From: Methanobacteriota archaeon
Lineage (GTDB): Archaea > Thermoplasmatota > DTKX01 > VGTL01
NCBI GenBank assembly: GCA_016874675.1
Contig: VGTL01000005.1
Location: forward strand, 1-64,000
DNA length: 64,000 nucleotides
Direction of reading: 5' to 3'
Part shown: positions 5,551 through 8,699 of the stretch, one piece after another
How the letters are laid out: every line of letters begins with the position of its first letter
How positions within the stretch are numbered: position 1 is the first letter of the stretch
The notes under the pieces: generated by a model
What the model was told of the DNA's origin: nothing
Seen by the model: the letters and a program-made list of their open reading frames with translations, nothing else
The model's database searches: none
Position numbers and translations under genes: made by a program

Positions 5551-6399
5551 CTACGCCTTTTTCCTCCAGTGCCTGAACTCGCAGACCTCCATCCGGAACG
5601 GCTCGCCGGTCCCGAAGCACCGGGCCATCTCGATGACGACGGCCCGGAACTCGTCTTCGGAGAGCTGCGTCTTCATCACGTTCACCCAGTAGGCCGCCAC
5701 GACCAAGCGGCTCCCGTCGCCTGGCATTGGGTGGTCGTAGGTCAGGTCCCACGGGCGTCCCAGGTTCTGGATGTCGACCGCCACCCCCGTGTAGTGGCAC
5801 CGGAAGCTGTCCGTGGCCGGGTCGTATGCCTCCTTGAGCGCCTGGAGCTTGACCATGCTGAAGTCGGGGGCGTCCGCCATCTTGTGGCACCGGGCGCAGT
5901 AGAGGGTGTTGGGCACGGGAGGCTTCTCGCATATCGGGCACTCGTCTGCGCGCCAGGCCCGGAAGGGCGGGACGCCGGCAATGCGCGGCGGCTTGATGGG
6001 CGCGCGGTTCCAGTACCGGAACCTGAGGGCCTTCCTGTCGACCGCGGTCCCTTGCTGGAAACGGCGAGCCAGCGCGAGAACGGCCCTGCGGGCCTCGGTG
6101 TCCGTCAGGTCCGATATCATCGCGTTGTAAAACGAGCAGGAGACCTTGATCTTGCCGCGCTTTTTGGGAATGGGGTGGTGGAAGGTGAGGGCATCGGGCG
6201 CGTCCTGGTCGGTCTCGTTGAGAGGGATGTTCAGATATGTGCAGGTGAAGATGTCCCGCGCCGGGTCGTAGCGCGCCTTGAGCGTCTTGACGCGGGCGCG
6301 AATCTCCTTGCGCACGGAGCACCATTTGTGGCAACGGGCGCAGTAGCTGTGGCGCGCTGATATCGGCGGCTTCCTGCAGACCTGGCATTCTTCAGGCAT
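5551..6399 (-). CDS. Tandemly duplicated zinc-binding/HNH-like domain protein
   Basis: Two about 135-aa repeats each with CxxCxKPP...YCARCHK, LKxxYDPxxDxFxCxY, LTxxHPxP(K/G), RAV...ARxFxxG, FRxW. Confidence 0.75.
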   Translation of the reverse strand: MPEECQVCRKPPISARHSYCARCHKWCSVRKEIRARVKTLKARYDPARDIFTCTYLNIPLNETDQDAPDALTFHHPIPKKRGKIKVSCSFYNAMISDLTDTEARRAVLALARRFQQGTAVDRKALRFRYWNRAPIKPPRIAGVPPFRAWRADECPICEKPPVPNTLYCARCHKMADAPDFSMVKLQALKEAYDPATDSFRCHYTGVAVDIQNLGRPWDLTYDHPMPGDGSRLVVAAYWVNVMKTQLSEDEFRAVVIEMARCFGTGEPFRMEVCEFRHWRKKA

Positions 6400-7160: not shown

Positions 7161-7528
7161 AACTGTTTTTGGGGGCGGAAAGAAAAATGGAGGGTCGTGG
7201 GCGATGAGCGGAGGCTTTCGGACGGGGCGGGGAGATGCGGGCTGGGAGGTCGACACCGGTGGGAGATTGAGATCTGTTGCCGGAGACGGAGGACGGTCGA
7301 TGGAGGGTCGAGGGGGAGACGGGGAGGGTTTGGGCAAAAGCGGGGAAATGAGAATATATATTTATTTCTGTATCTTGAAAATACCTGGACCTTGCCTAAC
7401 GGTAAGAAGTTGAGCTCTATATTGACTATTTCCAAGGGGTATACCGGTGGTAGTCCTAAGATCGCTTTGTTTTACTATATCTACATCCATGGCTTGGCCG
7501 GTTTTATAATTGAAAATCCATATCAACC

Positions 7529-7593
7529 GGGCGCGGCGGCCCCGCCGGTTAAGACCGGCGGTATGTGCGGCTGCGGCCGCAGCCGCCGCGCCC
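7529..7593. other. Three-way-junction inverted repeat adjacent to TnpA remnant (possible IS end)
   Basis: GGGCGCGGCGG/CCGCCGCGCCC outer 11-bp stem enclosing CCGCCGGT-TAAG-ACCGGCGG and TGCGGC-TGCG-GCCGCA hairpins. Confidence 0.5.
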
Positions 7594-7605
7594 GTTTTTC
7601 TCGCT

Positions 7606-8027
7606 TCAGCAGGCGAACCTGTCCAGCTTCGTCTGGCCTGCCACGTCCATCGGCACCCGCGGCGCTCCTTGGTATGCCGGCGACCACATGTGTCCGCCCC
7701 AGAACCTCTCGCGTCGTAATTCCGGGAAGTCCCGAAGCACCTCCCTCGCGCACCGCCCTTTCAGGAGCTGGATTACCTTGGACAACGGCTTCCAGGCCCC
7801 CATTGAAATACCATATGGACATGATCCTTGTCTATTCCCATTTCCAGGATCTTCAGTCCCGTCTTTTCACTCCACGCCCTCTCCGTTTCCCTGAAGCTCT
7901 CCAGAGCTCTCGCCATCACTACCCCCTTTCCAAATATCTTGTGCCTGTACTTCACCGCGTAGTTCACATGCGCCACCTGCACTCCCAGGCTCGAGCTATA
8001 GCTCACCTTCTCGATTTTCATGACCAT
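7606..8027 (-). pseudogene. Frameshifted IS200/IS605-type Y1 transposase (TnpA)
   Basis: 84-aa ORF with VNYAVKYRHKIF...DKDHVHMVFQW followed in another frame by PLSKVIQLLKGRCAREVLRDFPELRRERFWGGHMWSPAY; frames meet at about 7800. Confidence 0.8.
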
Positions 8028-8192
8028 ATTCGCACCTCCGAAAAGTTTTTCCCCTTCGAGAGCTATCGCTCGCTTGCCTCACTCGTCGAGGGCGAGCGTG
8101 TAACCCTCGCCCCCGACATTTTCCTGGCAGGACAAAAAGGCTACTGCCGATTATGCCTGGCTGTCACGCCACCGGTTGAAACCGCAGACATT

Positions 8193-8275
8193 CCACCGCC
8201 TTCCTGAAACAGGCTCGCAAGCCTGGTTCAGGGACGAACGCGCTTCCATCAGGAAGCGCGGAGTTCAGGCGGTGG
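8193..8275. ncRNA. 83-nt three-way-junction element, copy 1 (RNA or structured DNA; strand unknown)
   Basis: CCACCGCCT...AGGCGGTGG outer stem; CCTGAA..AGGCT-CGCA-AGCCT..TTCAGG hairpin; GAAC-GCGCTTCC-ATCA-GGAAGCGC-GGA-GTTC hairpin. Confidence 0.55.
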
Positions 8276-8384
8276 ATTGTCTGGGGGACCGCAAACGAGC
8301 GCAGGGCGCTCGTTTCGGCCGAGAAGACCAGCAGGTCTTCTACGGAAACGAGCGGCGAGCAGCCCCGCCCGGAGGGCGGGCATG

Positions 8385-8467
8385 CCACCGGGTTCCACGG
8401 TTTGGCCCGGGGGCCAAATTGTGGAACGAACGCACAATCCGCAGATTGTGCGGAGTTCAGCCGGTGG
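8385..8467. ncRNA. 83-nt three-way-junction element, copy 2
   Basis: CCACCGG...CCGGTGG outer stem; TTCCAC..TTTGGCCC/GGGCCAAA..GTGGAA hairpin; GAAC-GCACAATC-CGCA-GATTGTGC-GGA-GTTC hairpin; same length and topology as copy 1 with different stem sequences. Confidence 0.55.
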
Positions 8468-8570
8468 TGCTGCGAGCCGGTCGTTTGACACCGGTGGAAA
8501 AGCCCCGGTGGGTTTTTATGACGGTGATTCGCCCGTTTTGTCCAAACTCATTATCAAGGGCCGGTCGTGG

Positions 8571-8699
8571 ACTCCTCCCTTGTCCCTTGCGCCTCCACCC
8601 TTGCGCCTCAAGCCTTGCGCCCTGCGCCTCCGCAGGCGGCCTTCAGGCCGCCAAGGCGAGGCGGCCCGAAGGGACGCCGGGTGCGCCTCGCGCCTTGTA
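8571..8699. repeat. Heptanucleotide repeat, two opposing tracts
   Basis: cccttgcgcctccacccttgcgcctcaagccttgcgccctgcgcc / aggcgaggcggcccgaaggg. Confidence 0.65.

Follow-up and report, generated by a model that had tools for sequence, protein, structure and literature searches.

A candidate mobile palindromic repeat with branched ends beside a decayed IS200/IS605-type transposase gene in an archaeal genome

The window analysed here, a 64,000-nt stretch of DNA whose proteins match archaeal families, belongs to a MAG of 3.36 Mb (189 contigs, 94% complete; contigs of that genome are written as C followed by a number). At 7523-8027 on the minus strand it carries a decayed tnpA gene of the IS200/IS605 type (Y1, HUH), recognised by profile PF01797 and by frame reading. 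The N-terminal open reading frame matches PF01797 in Pfam at E 2e-8, and the remnant falls into two pieces read in different frames, one aligned to profile positions 7-64 and the other to 64-102 (profile length 121). Three-frame reading of the remnant places the HUH motif KDHVH in one frame and the remainder in another, and showed no YxxxQ motif. The genome holds only two tnpA loci, of which the second is an intact Y1 transposase gene on C71 with the motifs AEHVH and YIESQ; these resemble the class-1 motifs of IS200 transposases, unlike the REP-associated class (PMC6006769). A search of the 94% complete genome for TnpB (PF07282) gave no match. Just downstream of the tnpA remnant, at 7528-7594, folding predicts a T-shaped (three-way) palindrome, in which no sequence similarity to the elements described below was seen.

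Of 293 genomes searched, this one alone encodes an HNH-like, zinc-ribbon-like protein family, duplicated to about ten copies, with members at 5551-6399 of the window (minus strand), at C71:1410-2252, on C122 (three), C102, C131 and C140, and as fragments on C4 and C45. Its match to Pfam HNH is sub-threshold (E 0.05), and each of the genome's two tnpA loci has a member nearby. A link between this family and the T-shaped structures was considered and set aside, as no tnpA lies near the two further loci that were translated (C122 and C102) and the genome has only two tnpA loci. At C4:41746-43546, an ATPase-like gene is flanked by fragments resembling the family, and a weak match to the three-way junction borders one of them, an arrangement that suggests a site of repeated insertion.

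Directly upstream of the tnpA remnant, fold and alignment place two 83-nt three-way junctions on the plus strand, W1 at 8193-8275 and W2 at 8385-8467, where the first-pass annotation had described two elements of the same fold. Each has two arms: P2, a 15-bp stem (8201-8234 in W1, with loop CGCA and a single A-G mismatch; 8393-8426 in W2), and P3, with a GAAC/GTTC base and a GGA bulge (8236-8266 and 8428-8458). The outer stem reaches beyond the 83 nt, more weakly in W2 and clearly in W1, where the left branched hairpin occupies 8185-8283 on the plus strand by extension of the outer stem as CAGACA-T-TCCACCGCC / GGCGGTGGA-T-TGTCTG. Both elements are very stable as RNA, at -54.2 kcal/mol for W1 and -52.3 kcal/mol for W2 (shuffle z-scores of -8.8 and -7.1; 0 of 200 shuffles equally stable). 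When random 83-nt stretches of the window were folded as DNA, 10 of 4000 matched the weaker element, W2, and two of these sit at the structure near 7528. The surroundings (521 nt) fold as DNA into one large nested structure with a z-score of -15.9, and the region 8130-8543 is closed off as a whole by the long-range stem GGACAAAA/TTTTGTCC.

It had also been claimed that pairing is kept while the stems change, and this is borne out by the ungapped alignment of W1 and W2, a comparison of two paralogous copies within one genome, in which 98.5% of cells are paired and both partners have been replaced in 10 of the 34 pairs; with the 3' partner shifted by 1-3 columns, 30-46% are paired. A second stem count gave 94.7% of cells paired and two-sided change in 13 of 34 pairs, more than in 500 of 500 shuffles; here 19 changed cells were two-sided and about 5 one-sided. 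The linkers are indeed identical (CGAAC in 5 of 5 positions, GGAGTTCAG in 9 of 9). The stems do differ, though not almost completely as had been stated: about half of their positions differ, with strand identities of 7-8/15 in P2 and 4/8 in P3.

The three hairpins reported between the two elements are present, but the part at 8289-8345 is one copy of a separate repeat family and does not belong to the W1/W2 element. The unit of this companion repeat is a pair of inverted hairpins whose outer feet carry CCG(T/C)A (here CCGCA-stem-CGGCCG-stem-TACGG); the feet read CCGTAG or CCGCAG/CCGCAA, the AG lying inside the stem. The GTAG or GTGG tetranucleotide that marks the 5' foot of REP hairpins was looked for in W1 and W2 and not seen. 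A script, whose genome-wide counts cover 2.5 of 3.36 Mb, found the companion repeat at 14 places in those 2.5 Mb plus a partial contig and at none in Markov sequence, and a model of 13 copies places it at about 45 distinct sites in the genome (83 matches over both strands), with one weak match in 292 other genomes. The 13 copies have 97.8% of their cells paired, and 20 of the changes are two-sided against 2 one-sided, which shows that compensated palindromes are a general property of this genome's repeats. Also between the elements, immediately before W2, stands the hairpin CCCGCCC-GGA-GGGCGGG (8364-8380), of which a diverged version adjoins the C33 copy described below. Beyond W2, a hairpin with a T-run had been noted near 8485-8515; it lies at 8498-8517 on the plus strand, reads AAAAGCCC-CGGT-GGGTTTTT and is terminator-like. 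It is overlapped by a 38-nt plus-strand sequence (8513-8550) of which a second copy, 100% identical and with sharp ends, lies at C33:20622-20659. The genome also contains giant intergenic hairpins, formed where a GCAAG array precedes a CTTGC array by no more than 400 nt; in 2.5 Mb this order was counted 89 times and the reverse once. Several of these hairpins hold REPIN-like units in their loops, and a one-sided array of this kind lies at 8578-8629 of the window.

Convincing relatives of W1 and W2 were found in their own genome only. A covariance model of the two copies found a third near copy at C141:1392-1474 and weak ones at C142:3084-3157 and C4:43464-43546; across 390 genomes of the phylum it matched its own genome only, with nothing at E 0.01 in the 389 others. 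A second model, to which the C141 and C142 copies were added, recovers C142 at 2e-14 (itself a member of the model), adds C45:1170-1246 (E 4e-6), raises C4 to 2e-5 and gives weak matches in one other genome, G016. The tally for the 83-nt type is thus four clear and two weaker copies, all in one MAG. An exact-linker scan of about 85,000 GTDB species returned 37 matches in which full stems are absent; together with 13 matches in viral contigs, in which as in the GTDB species pairing is absent or partial, these were put down to chance. The right-end pattern described below was not found in viral contigs or GTDB species, and a distant DNA search of plasmids and phages gave no match. The observation that the elements match no nameable family agrees with an Rfam scan that gave no match at the curated gathering threshold and chance-level matches only when relaxed (E up to 5). 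Weak R2 matches in G005, G007, G008, G012 and G019 were taken as chance. A naive scan for T-shaped folds yielded 34 in 2.5 Mb against 5 in 0.84 Mb of Markov sequence; most are chance folds in GC-rich coding sequence, and the scan was given no evidential use.

The copies delimit a composite element, E1, at 8181-8489 on the plus strand, whose presumed role as a mobile unit rests on ends common to several places with differing flanks. The left end, TTGA(A/C)ACCG(C/T)AGACATTCC, is common to E1, C141 and C121; the right end, GGTGGTGCTGCGAGCCGGTCGTTTGACA (8463-8490, plus strand), recurs with few changes in E1, C141, C121 and C33, the last of which carries the right end only. TTGAA or TTGAC precedes the left boundary in 3 of 3 copies (TTGAA at 8176-8180, plus strand) and TTTGACA marks the right boundary in 4 of 4, and the flanks otherwise differ from site to site. 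Between these ends the content varies. In the window the left end leads into W1 and the right end closes W2, with the other hairpins between them; in C141 the ends enclose one pair of arms, whereas in C121 and C33 they enclose a mere loop of 3-4 nt, as CCACCGCC-TTC-GGCCGGTGG and CCACCAGC-TTCA-GTCGGTG. The arms are present in W1, W2, C141 and C142 and absent in C121 and C33, and since the ends are found both with and without them, the arms behave as a module. Joining the window flanks across 8181-8489 gives CCACCGGT-TGAA-ACCGGTGG, a fully paired 8-bp hairpin whose loop lies at TTGAA. Its arms (8169-8176 and 8490-8497, plus strand, read from the sequence) would represent a presumed target palindrome; the empty site, CCACCGGTTGAA joined to ACCGGTGG, is a reconstruction from these flanks rather than an observed site. 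On C142 the arms sit in an insertion of about 115-120 nt within a dehydrogenase pseudogene, of which an intact paralogue on the same contig has no insertion. Beside that arm module, within C142:3030-3157, the palindrome GCCGACCGCC-GGGA-GGCGGTCGGC starts with host gene sequence, GCCGACC. By simple gene prediction the end-bearing copies are all intergenic, one of them between convergent genes.

Taken together, these observations allow a model in which a composite palindromic DNA repeat, non-autonomous and in the style of REP/BIME or PATE elements, occupies 8181-8489 and is moved as single-stranded DNA by an IS200-type Y1 transposase. We assign this model a probability of roughly one half. The model proposes that the subterminal ends are branched, T-shaped hairpins, W1 on the left and W2 on the right, which would fold when the strand is exposed as single-stranded DNA, as in lagging-strand synthesis, and that an IS200/IS605-type transposase (Y1, HUH) would recognise the folded ends. 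At the left the enzyme would cut after TTGA(A/C) and at the right after TTTGAC, an excised circle would join GTCGTTTGAC to ACCGCAGAC, and the unit would be reinserted 3' to another TTGA(A/C). Mobile palindromic DNA would explain the modular copies, the defined ends, the insertion within a gene, the restriction to one genome and the neighbourhood of a tnpA gene, and IS200/IS605 elements, too, combine an invariant right end with a left target that varies. The hairpin restored by joining the flanks, the paired changes in the stems, the dispersed companion repeat and the intact tnpA on C71 also speak for the model. We infer single-strand transposition, the cleavage sites and the acting transposase from these features, and the link between E1 and a transposase follows from kind and neighbourhood, not from matching ends. 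However, several findings weigh against E1 as a mobile repeat: four end-bearing copies are few for a REP family, E1 is oriented opposite to the adjoining tnpA remnant, no E1-type ends were found near the intact tnpA on C71, and the C142 copy has no TTGA junction, its outer stem pairing instead with host gene sequence.

Known systems resemble E1 in part. REP, BIME and REPIN sequences are species-specific intergenic palindromes, often inverted doublets with paired changes, near a Y1 transposase gene (PMC2817692, PMC3116915, PMC6006769), and the companion repeat is REPIN-like in arrangement (PMC3116915), with CCGTAG-like outer feet and about 45 places in the genome. In contrast, W1 and W2 are branched, and their kind occupies 4-6 places, with four end-bearing copies only; the only two Y1 genes of the genome carry motifs like those of IS200-class transposases (DHVH; AEHVH with YIESQ), and neither is of the TnpA_REP class; and the host is an archaeon, while described REP families are mostly from Proteobacteria. 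Ends-only derivatives of IS200/IS605 elements (PATEs, MITE-like) have two folded subterminal ends, a constant right end and a short fixed target and are moved in trans (PMC7290912, PMC2806898), and ISDra2 inserts 3' of TTGAT (PMC2806898). E1 likewise has folded subterminal ends, and it appears to share the constant right end and insertion 3' to a short fixed target with no target duplication, as read from the sequences of few copies. However, each end described for such elements is a simple hairpin, some 20-25 nt long, whereas those of E1 are branched with two extra arms, and no parent IS with matching ends was found. The arm module P2+P3 is like the double-hairpin elements (DHEs) of fungal mitochondrial DNA, GC-rich adjacent hairpin pairs that are potentially mobile and mostly intergenic, sometimes within genes (PMC10085805), in form only, as DHEs are mitochondrial and share no known sequence with it. 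Two other candidates were rejected: a TnpB guide RNA (omega RNA), for which the genome has no PF07282 match, and an integron attC site. The boxes of attC read RYYYAAC ... GTTRRRY at the hairpin base, and on sequence reading CGAAC and GTTCAG misfit them.

The main rival holds that replication slippage and template switching both created and maintain the palindromes, through fold-back synthesis in which one arm is copied from the other and no transposase is involved. We regard this as rather unlikely, yet several observations speak for it. The outer stems of the C142 and C4 copies pair the element with neighbouring host gene sequence, the shared left end reads almost as the reverse complement of the right arm of W1, and two-sided changes far outnumber one-sided ones both in the second stem count (19 against about 5 cells) and in the companion repeat (20 against 2), as arm-to-arm copying would give. 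The C142 and C4 stems and the rarity of one-sided changes are well explained in this way. G016, a genome of the same phylum and another family, adds to this, parts of a mosaic multi-hairpin repeat being matched there 52 times: its hairpin modules occur with and without a middle hairpin, are followed at L230, L236 and L239 by CACGGAGTG or a near match, and differ between L230 and L239 by a further two-hairpin stretch inserted in one copy, and no Y1 transposase was detected in G016 at E<=0.001, which also tells against movement by Y1. The architecture is thus similar elsewhere in largely unrelated sequence, and the mover may differ. Template switching leaves unexplained, however, why the same ends recur at unrelated places bounded by TTGA(A/C) and TTTGACA, and why the companion repeat is dispersed in some 45 copies; it may have acted afterwards on the same repeats.

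A bolder proposal, which we consider unlikely, is that the P2+P3 arm module (CGAAC + GGAGTTCA) is itself mobile and settles in hairpin loops elsewhere, each insertion adding a branch to a growing, nested palindrome. Such hairpin-nesting mobile DNA would form an archaeal class of its own and might do without a classical transposase, in keeping with the similar mosaics of G016, where no Y1 transposase was detected.

The first-pass annotation had left open a novel structured RNA or DNA element, possibly IS-associated by position. The frameshifted Y1/IS200 tnpA does adjoin the cluster, and a DNA element or transposase substrate proves the better half of that alternative. A structured non-coding or cis-regulatory RNA, with W1 and W2 as paralogous three-way-junction RNAs, is improbable, and a new RNA family is not upheld. 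The fold itself is the sole point in its favour: very stable plus-strand folds with conserved linkers and paired changes, slightly better on the plus than on the minus strand in W1 and W2. The C141 and C142 copies, however, have no plus-strand preference as RNA, one-sided (G-U type) intermediates are few, and the arms are missing from two end-bearing copies. Nor does it have an Rfam match, a convincing homologue in the other phylum genomes or the linker scan, or a TnpB in the genome to use a guide RNA, and the copies behave as modular, dispersed DNA.

It is similarly doubtful that the cluster is just the upstream end region of a decayed IS together with the neighbouring tnpA, rather than an independent element. 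The position of the cluster directly upstream of tnpA, the T-shaped palindrome just downstream, the long-range stem around 8130-8543 and the recurrence of the outer 38 nt on C33 are consistent with such an end region; however, the same ends occur on C141, C121 and C33 away from either tnpA locus, and TTGA(A/C) and TTTGAC are read on the strand opposite tnpA. Least probable is a non-mobile intergenic structure maintained by the host, such as a transcription terminator or a chromosome-organising palindrome, which would suit the intergenic position of the end-bearing copies (one between convergent genes) and the T-run hairpin that follows, but not their mixed gene contexts (tandem, convergent and divergent), and which leaves the modular common-end copies and the arm-module copy within a gene unexplained.

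Branched hairpin-in-hairpin repeats of this kind seem little described in archaea. In bacteria much work has been done on REP-type palindromes and the transposases associated with them; on archaeal equivalents the papers considered here say little. The locus also carries a warning, in that compensated stems within one genome alone do not show a functional RNA. If the reading of E1 as a mobile palindromic repeat is true, such a branched, modular repeat, with its compensated stems, ISDra2-like junction pattern and nesting within other hairpins, would provide a natural test case for how single-strand transposases read shape rather than sequence, and for the evolution of palindromes by transposition versus template switching.
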